NCBI RefSeq assembly: GCF_040958695.1
Contig: NZ_CP162599.1
Span: 3,072,001-3,136,000 of the forward strand
Length of the DNA: 64,000 nt
Source: Ornithinibacillus sp. 4-3
GTDB taxonomy: Bacteria; Bacillota; Bacilli; Bacillales; Amphibacillaceae
Direction of reading: 5' to 3'
Positions 18,872 to 28,087 of the stretch are shown in pieces (position 1 is the first letter of the stretch; each line of letters opens with the position of its first letter). The position numbers and the translations under genes are program-made. Under the pieces are notes generated by a model. It made no database searches and was not told where the DNA came from. It was given only the letters and a program-made list of their open reading frames with translations.

Positions 18872-19714
18872 CTAGCCTTGACTTTTATTAAATAGTTTAG
18901 CAAATTTCAAGTAATGTAACATGTACTTAGCAAGTGTGATGACTGCAAAAATCAACATTAAAATGATTGTGATGGAAGCGCCTGGCGGTGTACCCAATTC
19001 ATAAGAAGCGACTAAACCGCTTAACATGCCAACAAGTGCAATGACCATTCCATTTAGTATGACACCGTAGAAGCTTTTGCTTAAACGAAGCGAGATCGCT
19101 GCGGGCAAAATGATAATGGCTGAGACAAGCAAAGCCCCGACAATCGGCATGATTACGGCTATTGTGACTCCTGTTAACACATTAAACAAAATCGACATCG
19201 CTTTAATAGGCAGGCCAGCTGTAAAAGCTGTTTCCTCATCAAATGTAAGAACATACATCGGTTTTCGATATATTAAATATAATAATCCGATCATGATCGT
19301 TAATCCTAGTAACATCCATATTTGTTCTTTGTTAATCGTAACGATGGAACCGAATAGAAATTGCGTTACACTTAATGTAGCTCCACCATCACTTATTTCC
19401 ATCAGGACAAGCGCTGCTGCCATTCCGACAGACATTAATATGGCAATCGAAATTTCAGAATATGTGCGGTACATTTGCCGCAAAAGTTCAAGTAAAATTG
19501 CAATGACGATTACCATGAGAATATTGGTCCATGTCGGATTGATACCAATGAACAGACCTAGCGCTACCCCAGCTAACGAGACATGGGATAAAGTATCTGC
19601 CATTAGTGATTGTCTGCGCAATACTAAAAACAATCCTAATATTGGAGCGATGAATGAGATTAAAAATGAAGCTTGGAAAGCTCTTTGCATGAATCCATAG
19701 AAAAACATCTCCAA
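18872..19714 (-). CDS. znuB: Zinc ABC transporter permease ZnuB/AdcB
   Basis: 280 residues with eight or nine predicted helices of the ABC-3 metal permease family. Family motifs are FMQRAFQASFLISFIAPILG at the N terminus, RRQSLMADTLSHVSLAGVALG (cytoplasmic coupling region) and MPIVGALLVSAIIILPAA. A TTG start at 19714 has AAGGAG 8 nt upstream; an ATG at 19708 is the alternative. It overlaps znuC by 55 bp. Last gene of the zinc uptake group. Confidence 0.92.
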   Translation of the reverse strand: MEMFFYGFMQRAFQASFLISFIAPILGLFLVLRRQSLMADTLSHVSLAGVALGLFIGINPTWTNILMVIVIAILLELLRQMYRTYSEISIAILMSVGMAAALVLMEISDGGATLSVTQFLFGSIVTINKEQIWMLLGLTIMIGLLYLIYRKPMYVLTFDEETAFTAGLPIKAMSILFNVLTGVTIAVIMPIVGALLVSAIIILPAAISLRLSKSFYGVILNGMVIALVGMLSGLVASYELGTPPGASITIILMLIFAVITLAKYMLHYLKFAKLFNKSQG

Positions 19715-20367
19715 GGTGAGTTCTCCTTCCGTATCAACGCAATGTGTTTATTAGCGTAGTGACGAATCTCTTCATGATCGTGTGTAACCATTAAGATACC
19801 TTTGCCATGCTCTGTACTATGGTGCTTCAATAATTGATAAAATTCTTGACGTGAACGTACATCCATTCCAATTGTAGGTTCATCTAATATAAACAAATCT
19901 GGATCTGTTGAGAATACACGAGCAATTAATATCCGCTGCTTTTGTCCGCCTGATAATTCTCCTATCTTTTTATGACGCATCTCCCACATTCCCACTGATT
20001 CAAGGGAACGACGAACATGCTCTTTATCTTCTTGATCTAACCTTTTAAACCATTTGCCTCTTTGAAAACGCCCAGACTCCACCAGTTCTAGTACAGTGCT
20101 CGGAAAACCTGCATTAAAGGAAGCGACCTGCTGGGAAACATAGCCTACAACTAACTTTTCACCGATACGGTTTTTCGGTGAAAGTTGAACACTTCCTTTT
20201 GAAGGTTTGAGGAGGCCTAAAATATTTCGCAAAAGTGTTGTCTTCGCCGCACCATTTTCTCCCGTAAGCATTACAAAATCTCCTGGAGCTACTTCAAAAG
20301 AAATATTTTCTAGTACGGGTTGATCTTCATAATGAAAGGCAAGATTTTCCACTTTGACATAATGCAT
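19660..20367 (-). CDS. znuC: Zinc ABC transporter ATPase ZnuC/AdcC
   Basis: 235 residues. Walker A is GENGAAKTT. The Ala in place of the usual third Gly is normal for AdcC-type zinc ATPases and is not damage. Signature LSGGQKQR, Walker B LFILDEPTIGMD, switch His MVTHDHEE, and the AdcC-like tail NSPWRCF. The start at 20367 has GGGAGG 9 nt upstream; the TTG at 20376 is too close to it. Works with znuB and znuA. Confidence 0.93.
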   Translation of the reverse strand: MHYVKVENLAFHYEDQPVLENISFEVAPGDFVMLTGENGAAKTTLLRNILGLLKPSKGSVQLSPKNRIGEKLVVGYVSQQVASFNAGFPSTVLELVESGRFQRGKWFKRLDQEDKEHVRRSLESVGMWEMRHKKIGELSGGQKQRILIARVFSTDPDLFILDEPTIGMDVRSRQEFYQLLKHHSTEHGKGILMVTHDHEEIRHYANKHIALIRKENSPWRCFSMDSCKELSKLHF

Positions 20368-20520
20368 ATTAAACAACCTCCCGCAAAAAAAGTTCGTTTT
20401 TCTTAAAATATCGCTGTTTTTCTTTCTATTAGTCCGTTTATTCTTTCTGCATAATCAAAATATGCAGCATATATAGCGTTCTATGAATTTTTTAATATCC
20501 ACTCATCTATAATCAACATA

Positions 20521-22047
20521 TTATTGAATACTTAACTGCAGAGATTTCAAGTTCTCACGCATTGCTTCTACATAGCCTAAATTTTTATCCTGCAATTCTT
20601 TCGATAATACTTCTAAATCATATAGTACTGCTGTCTCCGTTCCTGTTTCATTGGCGACAGTTTGGGCAATTGCTGAGTTAGCTCCTTGTTGATAATAGAT
20701 AATTGGCACATTATATTCTTTTAATAAGTCGCCAATCTCTGCAATACGTGAAGGACTTGGTTCGATTTCTGTCGATAAGCCGCCAATCGCAATCTGCTCT
20801 AAATGATAACGCTTCGCAAGGTATCCAAATGCTTGGTGTTGTACGACAAACACCCGATGTTTTGCATCTTTAAATGCGGATTCATAATCTTTATGTAATT
20901 CTTGAAGTTCTTTTATAAATGATTCCGCATTTTGTTCGTAAATGTCTTTTCCGTCTGGATCCGCATGAATAAGTGCGTCACGGATCACCTTTACTTGCTC
21001 TTGTGCCAAAACGGGATCTAACCAAATATGAGGATCCTGATTGTCATGATTGTCAATGAGAACGGACACAGGCTCTGATTCAGCGTAAACATTATGGTCA
21101 TGATCGTAAAGTACTGCTTTGACTTCAAAGCTTTCTTCAGACATTTTATACTCAAAATGGTCCGTTTCTTGACCAGTGACTACTTCCCATTCTTCATCAT
21201 GGTTTTCGCGTGTAAACCAGTGCCAATTCTTAAAGTCCGTCTCTTCTTTAAGCTTAGCAACAAGTGTAACGACATCTCCTGTATGATAATGATCATTAAG
21301 CCCGATGATATCTACTGTTGCAGCTGTTTCTTCACTTCCATGTTCGTGGTCATGGTTTGGATCATGTCCGTCATGATTATCTATAACAATTTCTATTATT
21401 TCTGACTGTGCAACTTCATGATGGGCTTCATCATATAATACCGCTCGCACCTCAAAACTTTCTTCCATTGCTTCAGCATGGAATTCAGGTCCAAATTGAT
21501 TGGGAACCGTTTTCCACTCTTCGTCAGAACCTTTTCTTGTATACCAATGCCAATGATCAGCATCTACATCTTCCTCTATTTCCGCAATTAACTGAATCCT
21601 GTCACCCGTATGATAATGGTCCTCAACACCTTTAATTGTTATCATTTCAGTAGCTTCATGATGATGAGGATGTCCGTGGTCATGATTGGCTAAATCAACA
21701 CCATCCGCGGCACGAGCTATAACAAGATTATCGTTTTCTATTGTTTTGAGCAGGCTATTTACCCAATGCTCCATATCTTCACTACTATAAACAAACACGT
21801 CTGCTTCATTGACACGTGCCACGTCTTTAGCACTTGGTTCATAGTGGTGTGCATCTTGCCCATCAGAGACCATTAACGCTACGTCTGCCCGGTCCCCAGC
21901 TACTTGTTTCGTAAATTCATACATTGGATAAAATGATGCTATCACTGAAAGCTTATCAACTGATGTGCTTTCTTCATTTTGACAGCCGAAAAGAATCACA
22001 CTAATCATTGAAATAAGTAAAATTGCAGCTAGGCAATTTCTTTTCAT
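20521..22047 (-). CDS. znuA: Zinc-binding lipoprotein ZnuA/AdcA with two inserted His-rich modules
   Basis: 508 residues from the ATG at 22047 (GGAG upstream; the frame is open to 22113). Signal peptide with lipidated Cys22 (ILFGC). It has the ZnuA fold: ASFYPMYEF, metal ligands in QDAHHYEPS (about 67), DPHIWLDP (about 340), VVQHQAFGYL (about 404), then LSTEIEPSPSRI. The His-rich loop after residue 120 is expanded by two tandem 90-residue modules (about 134-224 and 244-333). Each begins HYHTGD, has WHW(Y/F)TR and EEW in the middle, and ends IDNHD. These resemble an Ig-like fold and are also present in the adjacent ZinT protein. ZnuA proteins are normally near 310 residues. The ZinT domain that streptococcal AdcA carries at its C terminus is absent here and encoded separately. 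Confidence 0.92.
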   Translation of the reverse strand: MKRNCLAAILLISMISVILFGCQNEESTSVDKLSVIASFYPMYEFTKQVAGDRADVALMVSDGQDAHHYEPSAKDVARVNEADVFVYSSEDMEHWVNSLLKTIENDNLVIARAADGVDLANHDHGHPHHHEATEMITIKGVEDHYHTGDRIQLIAEIEEDVDADHWHWYTRKGSDEEWKTVPNQFGPEFHAEAMEESFEVRAVLYDEAHHEVAQSEIIEIVIDNHDGHDPNHDHEHGSEETAATVDIIGLNDHYHTGDVVTLVAKLKEETDFKNWHWFTRENHDEEWEVVTGQETDHFEYKMSEESFEVKAVLYDHDHNVYAESEPVSVLIDNHDNQDPHIWLDPVLAQEQVKVIRDALIHADPDGKDIYEQNAESFIKELQELHKDYESAFKDAKHRVFVVQHQAFGYLAKRYHLEQIAIGGLSTEIEPSPSRIAEIGDLLKEYNVPIIYYQQGANSAIAQTVANETGTETAVLYDLEVLSKELQDKNLGYVEAMRENLKSLQLSIQ

Positions 22048-22674
22048 TTCTTTCTCTCCTTTTTCTGCATTAAAAATTTCTCTCCTTTTACTCCCTCTAA
22101 CAATGAGATTCACTATTCAATGTGGTGGTGAGGAATACATCTTTTTCGCTTCTTATTTCCTGGACCCGCACAAAAAAATCACCAATGCAATCACTCGTAA
22201 CCGTTCTTTCCTTTTTTTCATTTTTCGTTTATCAAAAAGACGAATCCAGCGATTGCTATCCGTGCCGCCATTGTAAAGGAACGCATCAAGCTTGGATGGA
22301 AGGGCACTTAAACAACGTTTGATTGTACGAACCATTTGAAGACGTTCAAAAAATGTAGAGTTACACTTCTTACAATGAGTTACGATATATTTTGACTAGA
22401 GTCTTTCCTTCTTTTGTTTCCCAGCTTTTGGTTAACAAAGAGGGTGGGGGAGTGTGTTTTTTGTCCTCTTTTTAGGAATTGATTCAACTCACCACCACAT
22501 GCAGTATTGAGCCCGATAAATCTATAAAGATTTATTTTTTTCTAGATAATGAGAAGAATAGAAACAGACATTGTCGCTGATCCTATTTTTCACACCTTTA
22601 TAGGCAAGCAAATGCCACTAATGTGCTGGCACTGTGCCTTCCTCATCTGGCATTACATAATAGTAGATGCCATA
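22048..22674. other. Long gap between zinT and znuA
   Basis: No gene recognised and no convincing Zur box; the closest half-site, GTTACGA near 22380, lacks a partner. The string ACTAATGTGCT near 22617 repeats the zinT stop region at 22674, hinting at a small duplication. Confidence 0.4.
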
Positions 22675-23655
22675 CTAATGTGCTAACATATCACGCACGA
22701 GACTTTCTGCATCTAACTCTGCTGGATAATATGTTGGCCAATTCGTCACTTCTTCTAGTAGTTCATCTCGATCATCTCCCCAGTATAAATGGAAATGATT
22801 GGAGTCGACTGGGAAAATGTTATGATCGCTAAATTGAATATATTGCGGCATACCTTCTGTTCCATCTACTAATTTATAAATAAAGCGAACTCCTCGATTG
22901 CCTTTTTCATAAGTAAGGATTTCATATCCATCTGATTCGTACTTACCTGAGTATTCTTTGCCATTTTGGTAGAATGTTACTACATTATTCGCAATCTTGA
23001 TGTGATCTACATCTGTTTCATATCCTGCTGTGTAATACTCTTTATACTCTTCAGCAGTCATATCTCCGTTTTTTGCTTTATGTTCAAACACAACATCTAA
23101 ATCTCCAGATAAAAGATATGGATAAACAGACTGCCACTCTCCATCCCAATCCGATAATTCACGGTCTTTCACTTGCGCGTCTTCAAAATATCCTTGATAG
23201 ATTTGTTTACTTGCTTCGTCATGTCCATGATGATCATCAATGACGATTTTAACTGGCTCTGATTGAACGATTGGTTCGTGATGATCATCAAACAAAACGA
23301 CTTTTAGTTCTAAGCCATCAGTTGTTGCCTCGCCTATGAATGTTGCTGTTTCCTGACCAGAAACGACTTCCCATTCTTCACTTGCACTTTCTCTGCTATA
23401 CCAGTGCCAATGTTCATGCTCTGATTCTTCATCTAATACCGCGGATAACTCAATCTTATCACCAGTATGATAATGGTGAGCGAGACCTTCAATTTTTATC
23501 CCAACAGGTGTCTCTTCATCATTCGAATGCTGAGCGTGTTCCTCATCATGAACTTCTTCTTCCCCTGTTACATGCTCTTCTTTCGTTCCTTGACACGCTG
23601 TTAAAACGAAACAAAGTAAAAACAAGCTGAATAAACGAATTAGCAGTTTCTTCAT
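22675..23655 (-). CDS. zinT: ZinT-domain zinc lipoprotein with one His-rich module
   Basis: 326 residues. Lipobox VLTAC with Cys21, a His/Glu-rich linker (25-50), one copy of the HYHTGD...HWHWYSR module (about 52-140), then a ZinT/YodA domain (about 148-326: DRELSDWDGEWQSVYPYL, QFSDHNIFPVDSNHFHLYWG). ZinT proteins bind zinc and hand it to ZnuA. Here both partners carry the same extra module, which suggests it mediates transfer or extra binding. A Zur-type operator lies 37 bp upstream of the start. Confidence 0.93.
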   Translation of the reverse strand: MKKLLIRLFSLFLLCFVLTACQGTKEEHVTGEEEVHDEEHAQHSNDEETPVGIKIEGLAHHYHTGDKIELSAVLDEESEHEHWHWYSRESASEEWEVVSGQETATFIGEATTDGLELKVVLFDDHHEPIVQSEPVKIVIDDHHGHDEASKQIYQGYFEDAQVKDRELSDWDGEWQSVYPYLLSGDLDVVFEHKAKNGDMTAEEYKEYYTAGYETDVDHIKIANNVVTFYQNGKEYSGKYESDGYEILTYEKGNRGVRFIYKLVDGTEGMPQYIQFSDHNIFPVDSNHFHLYWGDDRDELLEEVTNWPTYYPAELDAESLVRDMLAH

Positions 23656-23691: not shown

Positions 23692-23714
23692 TAAAACGTA
23701 ATTGTTACGTTTTA
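23692..23714 (-). promoter_or_regulatory. Zur box upstream of zinT
   Basis: Arms TAAAACGTAAT and GTTACGTTTTA around one base closely match the Bacillus Zur consensus (TCGTAAT-N-ATTACGA core). Position just upstream of zinT fits repression when zinc is plentiful. Confidence 0.85.
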
Positions 23715-24025: not shown

Positions 24026-24048
24026 TAAAACGTAATGATTACGATTTA
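24026..24048. promoter_or_regulatory. Zur box with no recognisable downstream gene
   Basis: Arms TAAAACGTAAT and ATTACGATTTA around a central G; the right arm matches the consensus fully. No intact gene lies within 450 bp on the plus strand. zinT is about 370 bp away on the minus strand. Confidence 0.8.
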
Positions 24049-24067
24049 AAAAAGTACTTCATAATTA

Positions 24068-24090
24068 TAAAACGAAATCATTACGATTTG
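24068..24090. promoter_or_regulatory. Second orphan Zur box
   Basis: Arms TAAAACGAAAT and ATTACGATTTG around a central C, spaced 42 bp (four helical turns) from the previous box, so two Zur dimers would sit on the same face. The regulated gene appears to be lost or displaced. Confidence 0.75.
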
Positions 24091-24394: not shown

Positions 24395-25121
24395 AAACCA
24401 CCAGTGTGAACTGGTGGTTTGTTCTGCGGCTAGAAGCCTCTGTTACCGGCCTTGGCCTTAAAGGCCCACTGAATGGGTTTCCCTTTTGCACCACACTTAC
24501 TCACTGATTCTAAAAGAATCTCTTATTTCTTTTTATTTTTCTTCCCTGTAAATGGATCAAATTCTTCGAATAAAGTTAATTGATCACTCATGTAGTCATC
24601 TTTAAGCTGATTTCTTATGTATTCTTGTATTTGATTTTTATTTCTTCCCACTGTATCTACAAAGTAGCCTCGACACCAGAATTTTCGATTACCGTATCTG
24701 TACTTTAAATTCGCGTGACGATCAAATATCATTAAGCTACTTTTTCCTTTTAAGTATCCCATGAAGGAAGATACACTTAATTTCGGTGGTATACTCACTA
24801 ACATATGAATATGATCTCTACACGCATTTGCCTCGTGTATATCAACTTCTTTTCTTTCACAAAGCTCTCTTATAATTTCTCCAATACTTTGTTTGTATTT
24901 TCCATAAATCACTTGTCTTCTATATTTTGGAGCAAATACTATATGATACTTACATCTCCACTTTGTATGTGCTAAACTATTCTTGTCCTGCATAGGGCTT
25001 TGCCTCCTTCTTTGGTGAGTTTTGGTGGTCGGGAAACCAACCTTAGCTTACCATGAAGAGAGGCTTTTTTTGACCCCACGCTTGAAGCTCTTTAGAACCC
25101 CCGGCATAGCCAGGGGTTTTC
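24395..25121 (-). mobile_element. IS200/IS605-family element
   Basis: A single Y1 transposase gene bracketed by two hairpins: AAACCACCAG with CTGGTGGTTT at 24395-24420 and a CCCC(C)GGC...CCAGGGG hairpin near 25097-25118. Such subterminal hairpins are what TnpA recognises. These elements have no inverted repeats and no duplication, so exact ends are approximate. No TnpB is present. Confidence 0.85.
24523..24993 (-). CDS. tnpA: IS200 Y1 transposase TnpA
   Basis: 156 residues. The metal-binding HUH motif is in CRDHIHMLVSIPPK, and the catalytic Tyr is probably in QIQEYIRNQ. Typical opening KWRCKYHIVFAPKYRR. Catalyses single-strand excision and insertion. Length is normal and no lesion is seen. 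Confidence 0.95.
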   Translation of the reverse strand: MQDKNSLAHTKWRCKYHIVFAPKYRRQVIYGKYKQSIGEIIRELCERKEVDIHEANACRDHIHMLVSIPPKLSVSSFMGYLKGKSSLMIFDRHANLKYRYGNRKFWCRGYFVDTVGRNKNQIQEYIRNQLKDDYMSDQLTLFEEFDPFTGKKNKKK

Positions 25122-25183: not shown

Positions 25184-25684
25184 TTATCCAACATATTCAA
25201 ATACACCATGTGACGTAACGAGAAAGTTTCCGTTTAATTCTAAATCTCTCCCAAGTGCTCGATAGTCAATATAGTTCTGTAAATTAGTAGGAACTTCCCC
25301 AAGCATGCCTGTTTCTTCCACATAATACCGAGCCACATCTTCCATATCTTCACAATCTGTATAACAGATAATATCATCTTGATTTTCTAGTAATTCTTCT
25401 AAACTATCAAACCAATAATTTTTAATTTCGGATAGCTCATGATAAATTGGCGATCCTTTCAATTCTTCTACCATCGCACATAACCGATTGATTTCAGAGA
25501 TTGGTGTGTATTCATCAATTTCAAATGGCAACTCGTAATCATGCACGGCATACTCTTCATATTCGCTATTTAATCCGATACGCTCTTTTACGTCTTCCAT
25601 ATCAATCGGAGGCGTAAACCAAGCGCCAACCAATTCGCCCTCATTGTATTTTCCGAGGTTGGCAATGTAAACTTGCATGTCCAT
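25184..25684 (-). CDS. ardA: Antirestriction protein ArdA (Tn916 Orf18 type)
   Basis: 166 residues, acidic throughout (for example DIICYTDCEDMEDVARYYVEE), which is the DNA-mimic composition of ArdA. These proteins block type I restriction enzymes and protect an incoming conjugative element. It begins MQVYIANLGKYNEGELVGAW, the family N terminus, and ends GVFEYVG. In Tn916 it follows orf19. Here a DHFR-like gene and a terminator separate the two, so it is probably expressed alone. Confidence 0.95.
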   Translation of the reverse strand: MDMQVYIANLGKYNEGELVGAWFTPPIDMEDVKERIGLNSEYEEYAVHDYELPFEIDEYTPISEINRLCAMVEELKGSPIYHELSEIKNYWFDSLEELLENQDDIICYTDCEDMEDVARYYVEETGMLGEVPTNLQNYIDYRALGRDLELNGNFLVTSHGVFEYVG

Positions 25685-25719
25685 TAGTTTTCACATCCTT
25701 TTTATTAAAAATGGGCATA

Positions 25720-25752
25720 AAAAAACAGCTAACTGTTCATTGTAGCTGTTTT
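25720..25752 (-). terminator. Terminator between the DHFR-like gene and ardA
   Basis: AAAACAGCTA pairs with TAGCTGTTTT, followed by TTTTTT on the minus strand. Confidence 0.8.
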
Positions 25753-25876
25753 CATTTTCGTATTTTGATTTCACTAGAGCCAACAATTAATAAAAATATT
25801 TGTTGAATAAGATCTAAGAGATATCTGCGTTAAACTTTTATTAAACAATCGCACCCTTTAGTTGAAGAGTGTTCCA

Positions 25877-26413
25877 TTAATTTTTGACATCGTAGTGTAG
25901 TTCAACAAATTGATTGAAATTCCTAGTTCCTTTCAACGAAAGATCCAATTGATAATCTCCCTCTTTAAATAATGGAATCCCTTTACCAAGTATTGTTGGA
26001 GCAACCGTTAAGATCAGTTCATTAACCAATTTTTCTTGTATAAATGACTGTAACAATTCTCCTCCACCAACAATCCATATGTTCTTTCCTTCTTGATTTT
26101 TCAATTTATGAATAAAATTAGTTACATCATCATTAACAAACCTTACATTTTCGGTATCTTCAACAACCGATCTTGTAAACACATAACATTCTTTGTTTTT
26201 ATATGGGAACTCCTTTATATCTTGCTTCATTATCCAATCGTAAGTTCTTTTGCCCATTAAAACCGTATCGACCGTTTCATAAAACTCTGTAAATCCGTTA
26301 TCTCCTTCACCTTCAACCTTAAATAACCATTCAAGAGATTCCTCTTTTGTAGCAATATATCCATCCAAACTTGAAGCAATAAATAATACTAAATTACGTT
26401 TTTTGCTCATCAT
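25877..26413 (-). CDS. DHFR-like / RibD C-terminal domain reductase
   Basis: 178 residues. NLVLFIASSLDGYIA at the N terminus, VLMGKRTYDWIM in the middle, IWIVGGGELLQSFI and TILGKGIPLF toward the end. This is the YyaP/YwjB-like group of the dihydrofolate reductase superfamily, which often has no known substrate. It is not a Tn916 gene and lies between the orf19 and orf18 homologues, so it is an insertion into the transfer region. Start is one of two adjacent ATGs. Confidence 0.88.
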   Translation of the reverse strand: MMSKKRNLVLFIASSLDGYIATKEESLEWLFKVEGEGDNGFTEFYETVDTVLMGKRTYDWIMKQDIKEFPYKNKECYVFTRSVVEDTENVRFVNDDVTNFIHKLKNQEGKNIWIVGGGELLQSFIQEKLVNELILTVAPTILGKGIPLFKEGDYQLDLSLKGTRNFNQFVELHYDVKN

Positions 26414-26530
26414 TTTTCCCTTGCTTTTATTCCATTAACTGACCCGTTTGTTGAATAAACGACTCTTTTTCTAGTATTAATATTTCATACTATACAGTAA
26501 ACACACATTTTTTTCTATAAATCACATTAT

Positions 26531-26752
26531 CTAAGCTCCAATAATTCTGTTGAATAAGTTTAACAATACATCTTTCACTCCACTCGCATTAAAGACTAAT
26601 CCCACCGCAATTAAGGCAACAATCAAAAAGCCAATCAGCTTAGAAAATTCACGCTTAAATCCTAAATAAATCCCGATAACAACAATTGCCATCAACACTA
26701 ACGATTGTGCATTACTTAAAAACCAATTATAGAGATTTTGACCAAAATTCAT
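26531..26752 (-). CDS. Tn916 Orf19-like membrane protein
   Basis: 73 residues with two hydrophobic helices (about 15-32 and 38-58) in the pattern of Tn916 Orf19 (NAQSLVLMAIVVIGIYLGFKREFSKLIGFLIVALIAVGLVF split by a short basic turn). It is a conserved small gene of the transfer operon. Its exact role is not established. GGAG ribosome site upstream. Confidence 0.85.
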   Translation of the reverse strand: MNFGQNLYNWFLSNAQSLVLMAIVVIGIYLGFKREFSKLIGFLIVALIAVGLVFNASGVKDVLLNLFNRIIGA

Positions 26753-26774
26753 TGTTTATTTCTCCTTTCATTCT

Positions 26775-26864
26775 CTAATACTTTGTCACTTGACGCATAC
26801 ATTCGATAACCCATAAAATAACACCGCCCATAATCGTAATAAAAATGTACTTTAATAACTTCAT
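26775..26864 (-). CDS. DUF3789-type 29-residue membrane peptide
   Basis: Peptide MKLLKYIFITIMGGVILWVI followed by ECMRQVTKY: one hydrophobic helix and a short polar tail, as in the DUF3789 peptides encoded between orf20 and orf19 of Tn916 relatives. A GGAGG site precedes the ATG. Function unknown. Confidence 0.75.
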   Translation of the reverse strand: MKLLKYIFITIMGGVILWVIECMRQVTKY

Positions 26865-26878
26865 ACAATCCCTCCAAT

Positions 26879-28066
26879 CTATCGGTTAATGACTTCTTCT
26901 GTCGCAAGTGCTTGTTGCATCAATAATTGTTGGTGACGCTTAGTTAACTTTGCCTGGTCTAACATATCTTTAATCACAGTCGTTTGATTGATTTCATCGA
27001 GCTTCGTTGCTAATTTCCAAGTAGGAGCCACTTGTCGAGCCAACCATCTAAGTGTTTTATCAAATGTGTACGGTTCAGGTTTTGTTGTTAAAGTAATTTT
27101 TCTACTTACACCTAAATCCAGAAATCGTTTCCATTCTTTATTGATTTTCCAATGACTACGACGCTTTTTCTCATCCTTATCGACAAAACGAATATATCGG
27201 TTAATGATGGAAAACGCTGTTCGTCCAGCGTCTTCATAGGTCATTAAATCAACAATCGCGTGATACGCACGATCATTTTTTAAGCGTATTTCAAAGCGAT
27301 TTTTCACTTTTGTATCTTCTAGTGATGCTCCATGCTTTACGTATTGTTCGTAATCCTTCTCGTAAGCACAGAAATATACGTCACTTTTTAACGAGCCAAT
27401 ATATAACGTATTTCCCATATCAGGCTTTTCTCGATTCTGTACAAGTTCACCCGAACGATAGCTTTTAAAGCTACGGAAAACAGAGATACATTCTTCCTTA
27501 CGACATTTGTGTGTGAGAAACGGAATATCTAAGATGCTTGCCCTGTCATTGATCGCAAGGTCAATGCGTTTAAATACGCCACCAACACGAAATACGTCCA
27601 TAAAAAAATCAAACCATGTTCGCTGTTGGGCTAGTAGAAAATTTTCAAATTGGCGACAACCTTTTCCTTTCAGTTCCAGTAAACAACCTTTATCTTCATC
27701 AGGTGAAACCATGACGACAATATCTCCAAACACATATTGTTCCATGTACGAGTAAAATGCGTAATCCTCATGCATCATATATTCCATTTTAAGTTTCAAA
27801 ATTTCTTTAATGACAGGCTTCGGATTGGTCGTTATAAAACGAATCCGTACATAGTCAAACAAAATTTCCAAAGGTGCATCTGGATTAAATTGTTCTAAAA
27901 CATTGAATAGAGCATTTTTTAATGTTGGAGTCGGAGTTACTTTTCCTGTTTCGATTTCACTGATATATTGTCTAGAAATCCCTACATGTACAGCCAATTT
28001 ATTTTGTGATACGCCATATTCCACTCGTCTTTCCTTTAAACGTTGATACCAAGGCACTTGATTCAT
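26879..28066 (-). CDS. Relaxase / replication initiation protein (Tn916 Orf20, MobT)
   Basis: 395 residues. N-terminal Xre-type helix-turn-helix (about 14-62: VSQNKLAVHVGISRQYISEIETG) followed by a Rep_trans (rolling-circle initiator-like) domain. MobT relaxases nick oriT, start strand transfer and support element replication. The ATG at 28066 has GGAGG 7 nt upstream; the one at 28072 is too close. The frame is intact and lies next to its probable oriT, so mobilisation by another element's machinery remains conceivable. Confidence 0.93.
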   Translation of the reverse strand: MNQVPWYQRLKERRVEYGVSQNKLAVHVGISRQYISEIETGKVTPTPTLKNALFNVLEQFNPDAPLEILFDYVRIRFITTNPKPVIKEILKLKMEYMMHEDYAFYSYMEQYVFGDIVVMVSPDEDKGCLLELKGKGCRQFENFLLAQQRTWFDFFMDVFRVGGVFKRIDLAINDRASILDIPFLTHKCRKEECISVFRSFKSYRSGELVQNREKPDMGNTLYIGSLKSDVYFCAYEKDYEQYVKHGASLEDTKVKNRFEIRLKNDRAYHAIVDLMTYEDAGRTAFSIINRYIRFVDKDEKKRRSHWKINKEWKRFLDLGVSRKITLTTKPEPYTFDKTLRWLARQVAPTWKLATKLDEINQTTVIKDMLDQAKLTKRHQQLLMQQALATEEVINR

Positions 28067-28087
28067 GTGCATTCCTCCAAACTAAAA

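Follow-up and report, generated by a model that had tools for sequence, protein, structure and literature searches.

The His-rich module that recurs in ZnuA and ZinT of the Ornithinibacillus zinc-uptake locus described here is probably an uncatalogued, extracellular accessory zinc-binding unit of the zinc-uptake machinery, with an immunoglobulin (Ig) fold, that raises the supply of the ABC receptor. The case is built on the sequence family itself, its predicted fold, its conservation, its association with Zur-type boxes, its host proteins and its co-occurrence in ZinT and ZnuA. Stated as narrowly as all hosts allow, the claim is that of a domain outside the cell that binds zinc in support of its uptake.

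Three copies of one module in a zinT-znuA-znuC-znuB locus

The window, the whole stretch of 64,000 nucleotides that was analysed, lies within a 3.69-Mb Ornithinibacillus chromosome close to Gracilibacillus; the best named match of its ZinT among the matches listed came from G. dipsosauri (91%). The genes follow each other on the minus strand in the order zinT, znuA, znuC and znuB, with these features:

18872-19714, minus strand: znuB, ABC-3 permease (PF00950)
19660-20376, minus strand: znuC, ABC ATPase (PF00005)
20521-22113, minus strand: znuA reading frame, 530 aa from GTG (PF01297)
21052-21318, minus strand: module copy 2, ZnuA residues 266-354, HYH at 275-277
21319-21378, minus strand: Asp/His-rich linker between the ZnuA copies, residues 246-265, read from the sequence
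21379-21645, minus strand: module copy 1, ZnuA residues 157-245, HYH at 166-168
22675-23655, minus strand: zinT, 326 aa lipoprotein, module plus ZinT domain (PF09223)
22678-23211, minus strand: ZinT domain, residues 149-326 (PF09223), with H278, H287 and H289 invariant among relatives
23233-23505, minus strand: module copy 3, ZinT residues 51-141, HYH at 61-63
23696-23710, no strand assigned: Zur-type box directly upstream of zinT, 2 mismatches to TCGTAAYNRTTACGA
24030-24086, no strand assigned: two more Zur-type boxes (24030-24044, 1 mismatch; 24072-24086, 2 mismatches)

The three copies, each of about 89 residues, showed pairwise identities of 44-48% in gap-free alignments, with Smith-Waterman scores of 246, 232 and 235 against means of 32-33 for shuffled copies (sd 6.1-6.4; largest of 500, 60-64), giving z = 35, 33 and 32. 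Each begins its signature with HYHTGD (from residues 166 and 275 of ZnuA and residue 61 of ZinT), continues with HWHWYTR, NWHWFTR or HWHWYSR, then EEW, and closes with a D/H-rich tail. The first-pass annotation had read this series three times, as a tandem pair in the His-rich loop of ZnuA and a single copy ahead of the ZinT domain, and both the repetition and the placement were confirmed; its count of three holds for the window, but the genome contains five. The two extra copies are in a second ZnuA at 900 kb (L247:5564-8567, about 899.6-902.6 kb); its gene has a Zur-type box without mismatches and is followed by a cobW-type GTPase gene.

The znuA product is a zinc ABC substrate-binding lipoprotein with both modules inside its His-rich loop, matching PF01297 in two stretches with 247 bits (Pfam cut-off 29). 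Its true start is likely the ATG at 22045-22047, where the lipoprotein signal peptide appears to begin. ZinT matched PF09223 over residues 149-326 with 277 bits (Pfam cut-off 27). The core zinc ligands of both proteins look intact: in ZnuA, H362 and H426 are invariant and H89 and E501, the glutamate that we take to be the fourth zinc ligand, are at least 90% conserved among relatives, and the three-His site of ZinT listed above is invariant. The spacings are the same as those of the AdcA ligands 140-204 and 452-461-463 given in the available text of PMC7858048. Module copy 2 of ZnuA ends 8 residues ahead of H362, and N-H356 follows it, six residues before H362, so that the module tail adjoins the receptor's own site.

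Several observations were made around these genes. Between zinT and znuA, positions 22110-22510 hold a 23-nt imperfect inverted repeat (83%) with arms 355 nt apart; it is like a small IS remnant or MITE, is present as a single copy in its own genome and had zero matches in the plasmid collection. The Zur-type boxes at 24030-24086 are 42 bases apart with no obvious attached gene, and an IS200-like transposase gene (24523-24993) lies beside them. An ArdA antirestriction gene (PF07275) within 25184-28072 and a frame at 26879-28072 that appears replication-initiator-like by eye suggest a mobile element next door.

The module has no assigned family in the catalogues searched

No Pfam or NCBIfam family scored above cut-off over the modules of the window ZnuA and ZinT, the ZinT copy searched alone matched none of these families, and a PDB sequence search with the module returned no significant match. 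Among the titles and abstract openings listed from the open-licence PMC literature, none concerned the module, and the strings HWHWY, HYHTGD and HYHTG led to two unrelated papers. When 46 module copies were compared with Pfam, all matches were weak (best E 6.2e-4), and the candidates were rejected: SCAB-Ig matched 2 of the 46 copies (best E 6.2e-4) and Phage_tail_2 matched 7 (best E 8.5e-4). PF24264 (DUF7465), the precomputed label on the ZnuA relatives P0198 and P0209, covered 18-19 residues with 25.6 and 25.9 bits against a cut-off of 27, too short and too weak to name the module, and matched 2 of the 46 copies (best E 0.018). Big_3_5 (PF16640), listed for several wall proteins, had its best stretch near the C-terminus in P0280, P0297, P0301 and P0313, and in P0297 this stretch was outside the module (385-475). 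Profile-profile comparison (hhalign) gave a probability of 0.3% for a relation to choice-of-anchor M (TIGR03769). As the label "unassigned" in the first-pass annotation had implied, none of the catalogues searched has an entry for this domain. Of the different proteins among the matches listed, 231 of 231 matched the module profile.

AlphaFold predicted the module as a confident Ig-like sandwich (pLDDT 91.6), in line with the Ig-like character proposed earlier; the model of full-length ZinT reached a pLDDT of 83.9 and was left out of the reading of module orientation. The sole PDB match in Foldseek at E ≤ 0.001 was 9d7z_J, a particle protein of phage Moo19 (9.5e-4, 23% identity), followed by Fn3 and V domains, and we read these model-based matches as the generic Ig fold.

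The H-x-H motif is as invariant as the structural residues

The module consensus has a mean column identity of 54%, and its HxH varies no more than the structural Gly and Trp do. Within the fetched loci, H[YF]H was kept in 68 of 69 ZinT, 121 of 122 ZnuA, 3 of 3 stand-alone and 16 of 18 wall copies, and the D-x-H tail, scored with a loose pattern, in 67/69, 111/122, 2/3 and 14/18, respectively. H-W/Y/F-H-W was kept in 59/69 ZinT, 76/122 ZnuA, 3/3 stand-alone and 14/18 wall copies. Across a wider set of 110 proteins (107 wall-type and 3 ZnuA), only 143 of 280 copies kept H[YF]H, so some wall-protein copies are structural at best; at least one copy with H[YF]H was present in 86 of the 107 wall-type proteins.

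From the topology of Ig domains, HYH would be expected at one pole of the module and HWH at the other, and the second Trp of HWHW should be buried as the core Trp with the His facing out. His and Trp residues placed apart and buried had been named at the outset as speaking against a zinc site: HYH and HWH would indeed be apart and the second Trp buried, but the histidines would point outward.

The module is found on receptors, ZinT, free lipoproteins and actinobacterial wall proteins

ZinT had 2460 relatives in all. In ZnuA hosts the His loop contains a single copy or a pair, with C-terminal copies only in L111 and L112; a C-terminal module in Oceanobacillus ZnuA was ruled out, the copies there being loop inserts. 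Stand-alone module lipoproteins of 165-191 residues were found in Oceanobacillus oncorhynchi (L062; genome G077, without a ZinT match), in O. jeddahense (L063; genome G072, which also has a module-bearing ZinT) and in Desemzia (L037, directly upstream of a module-bearing znuA). Those of L062 and L063 still have a Zur-type box, a signal of the lipoprotein type and an extended D/H tail, and no ZinT relic was detected beside either gene or in L037:7700-8460. The named sources of the wall-type matches listed were Actinomycetota, and the module occurred together with a choice-of-anchor M domain in 99 of the 110 proteins examined. The wall genes were directly upstream of a substrate-binding protein (SBP) gene in all 8 fetched loci with room for a neighbour (L058, which ends at the wall gene, was left out), and none of these 8 SBPs carries the module. 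The transporter encoded beside the wall proteins is of the anchored-repeat ABC kind: NCBIfam assigned three tested SBPs to TIGR03772, one ATPase to TIGR03771 and one permease to TIGR03770. The description of the module as shared by ZnuA and ZinT is correct for 38 of the 40 genomes with a module-bearing ZinT, but was too narrow in view of the stand-alone and actinobacterial hosts.

Some hosts were of other kinds. Five proteins of 463-486 aa (P0242, P0250, P0251, P0252 and P0255; P0242 is from Patulibacter) contain modules and no anchor-M domain, and in three that were looked at the modules were three in tandem. P0274 (named HAF-repeat protein), P0297 and P0325 are secreted-looking with His-rich N-termini and one module each; all three are HAF-repeat-like, with no known zinc role, and two of them lack HYH. 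A cobW-type GTPase gene (L055:4991-6229) lies upstream of a Streptomyces module-bearing wall gene.

The distribution of the module is patchy. It was present in 36 of 159 genomes of the family sample, 19 of 397 of the order sample (after dropping four weak matches), 3 of 398 of the class sample and 1 of 299 of the phylum sample (the own genome, after dropping one weak match), and in one Streptomyces family in 1 of 91 genomes, the centre genome only. The weak profile matches (G386, G947, G975, G992 and G1154; 1070-1898-aa frames, E 6.7e-6 to 6.3e-4) were dropped because they start after the HYH part.

Most Bacillota module genes lie behind Zur-type boxes

We scanned 300 bases upstream and 60 bases inside each gene for CGTAATNATTACG-type boxes with at most 2 mismatches. 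Such a box was upstream of 46 of 55 module-ZinT, 28 of 50 module-ZnuA and 3 of 3 stand-alone genes, compared with 82 of 1500 random stretches from the same loci, and every one of the 22 boxless module-ZnuA genes immediately follows a module-ZinT gene or, in the case of L037, the stand-alone gene. As judged by these pattern matches, most Bacillota module genes are behind Zur-type boxes, which agrees with the zinc context first proposed; none of 10 wall genes had a Bacillus-type box. Over the whole window, the 15-base pattern with up to 3 mismatches gave 16 matches against 9.2 expected, with as many in 1 of 100 shuffles, and the three matches with at most 2 mismatches are those near zinT. The window znuA, unlike many relatives, has no adjacent Zur-type box, and membership of the window in a Zur regulon is proposed from the sequence match at 23696 upstream of zinT. 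The available texts describe B. subtilis yrpE as ZinT-like (PMC3842936), with a proven Zur box (PMC4324032), and report that zinc and Zur repress the related anchored-repeat operon of C. diphtheriae (PMC6711530).

Modules in ZinT and ZnuA co-occur

Pairing was scored in 104 genomes with a usable ZinT. ZnuA carried the module in 38 of 40 genomes with a module-ZinT, in 2 of 35 with a lone module-free ZinT and in 0 of 29 with a ZnuA-ZinT fusion (Fisher p = 1.6e-23 for module-ZinT versus the rest, ignoring kinship), and the earlier proposal that an add-on module stands in place of the fusion accords with the last count. The exceptions were G095 and G1013, with the module in ZinT only, and G894 and G927, with it in ZnuA only. 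In 39 of the 40 genomes scored positive, the module and the ZnuA core shared one frame, and G154 was scored by frame length. Left out were six genomes in which the ZinT match was broken, fragmentary or very weak (G015, G024, G089, G1058, G1075 and G1143); among them G1075 has a module-ZnuA, and G089 has an interrupted module-ZinT together with a module-ZnuA, the latter by frame length. Seven family genomes have a module-ZnuA and no ZinT match, one of which (G002) is only 86% complete.

A quickly searched ZinT-domain tree requires no fewer than 5 changes of the module, of which well-supported branches force 2. An independent-pairs test on this tree found 2 pairs, of which on average 1.8 went the same way and none the opposite way; with only 2 well-supported pairs, significance is out of reach. 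Since the tree holds only 2-5 independent events, the co-occurrence is strong and falls short of proof of coupling. A tree of the module itself, built from few columns, grouped the copies by host position (28 changes versus 121 when shuffled), which suggests that the host positions are old.

Two explanations of this pairing deserve weight. The modules may descend from one ancestral zinT-znuA operon, inherited as a cassette without any functional coupling, as the few changes on the ZinT tree and the linkage of zinT and znuA in 22 of 38 genomes would predict; the two genes are nevertheless separated by more than 10 kb or placed on separate contigs in the other 16, and the module also sits on other hosts, in another phylum and beside another metal receptor. 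Cassette ancestry explains part of the ZinT-ZnuA pairing, and as a full account we give it somewhat less than an even chance. Alternatively, the modules of ZinT and ZnuA could bind each other, tethering donor to acceptor as a non-covalent substitute for the AdcA fusion. Such docking could account for the pairing in Bacillaceae, its persistence where the genes are unlinked and the exclusion of the module from fusions, and, according to the available text (PMC7858048), the ZinT-like domain of AdcA touches its His-rich loop at the base, the position taken by the modules in the present ZnuA. However, the seven module-ZnuA genomes without a ZinT match, which likewise count against the transfer or docking role that the first-pass annotation had proposed, and the wall proteins beside module-free SBPs in 8 of 8 loci mean that docking is not general; G894 and G927 pair a module-ZnuA with a module-free ZinT, and the 2 well-supported independent contrasts are too few for significance. 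We consider homotypic docking doubtful. Both explanations concern the pairing and can be compatible with an accessory zinc-binding unit.

A predicted zinc-capture site next to the receptor

We infer zinc binding, a two-site geometry and hand-over for the accessory unit. Zinc would be captured by the near-invariant H-x-H of strand A' and the adjoining D-x-H after strand G; a second, more variable cluster would probably be formed at the other pole by the HWH of strand C and the D/H-rich FG loop. The module would in this way increase the zinc available locally to the ABC receptor. In ZnuA it may act directly, from the His-rich loop just before the core ligand H362, and on ZinT, a stand-alone lipoprotein or an actinobacterial wall protein it would capture zinc and then hand it over. 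Counted against the zinc-binding reading are the lower conservation of HWHW in ZnuA, the loss of H[YF]H from about half of the copies in the wider wall-protein set, the HAF-repeat-like hosts, the boxless wall genes, the few independent events and the near-absence from the Streptomyces family.

A bolder version, in which a single portable, two-poled relay domain serves two Gram-positive phyla, passing zinc pole to pole between copies on wall proteins, free lipoproteins, ZinT and the receptor loop, with the module pair replacing the ZnuA-ZinT fusion in Bacillaceae, seems to us rather unlikely. Least probable of all is a passive spacer with histidines incidental to His-rich proteins: many bacterial Ig-like repeats do lengthen or rigidify surface proteins, and the generic Ig fold, the tandem wall arrays with decayed motifs and the acidic, D/H-rich surroundings would suit that role, but HxH matches the structural Gly and Trp in invariance, with D-x-H close behind, while many columns vary, the module sits in the ZnuA metal loop and not between anchor and receptor, and stand-alone copies retain Zur-type boxes.

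The module offers a new part to test in zinc-uptake research. A compact, foldable domain that is common to ZinT and ZnuA and tracks the fusion state of ZinT is a clean experimental handle that lends itself to expression on its own, deletion, mutation or exchange, and it provides a candidate function for unannotated repeats of actinobacterial surface proteins.

Comparison with known systems

The usual neighbour of the module in wall proteins, the choice-of-anchor M domain of anchored-repeat ABC systems (TIGR03769/NF038134), also occurs in the SBPs tested and has its own His motif; it is a separate domain. The module consensus lacks the conserved Cys pair of V-type immunoglobulin folds and has no membership there at the sequence level. 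The Pht histidine-triad proteins have a sequence motif that differs from that of the module, and no Pht or AztD family was among the Pfam/NCBIfam matches of the window host proteins. As described in the available texts, the Pht proteins of S. pneumoniae, which supply AdcAII (PMC3842936), resemble the module hosts as accessory surface zinc binders feeding an ABC receptor, and the zinc chaperone AztD, which supplies AztC (PMC6689063), resembles them as an accessory donor to a zinc ABC receptor.

AdcA, the ZnuA-ZinT fusion of Streptococcus, Staphylococcus and many Bacillales, has the same two zinc domains with the same ligand spacing and, where the domains meet, a His-rich loop (PMC7858048, in the text available). 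It differs in its covalent fusion and in having no Ig module, which was matched in none of the 29 fusion genomes; the separate genes here scored 160 and 260 bits against the cut-off of 700 for AdcA (NF033605). The same text calls the contribution of the His-rich loop poorly defined and the aid of ZinT to uptake unclear, and reports that growth of AdcA strains in low zinc was hurt by losing both the His-rich loop and the ZinT-like domain, and not by losing either alone (PMC7858048). By analogy, this growth defect suggests that such zinc-uptake parts act redundantly, as recruiters.
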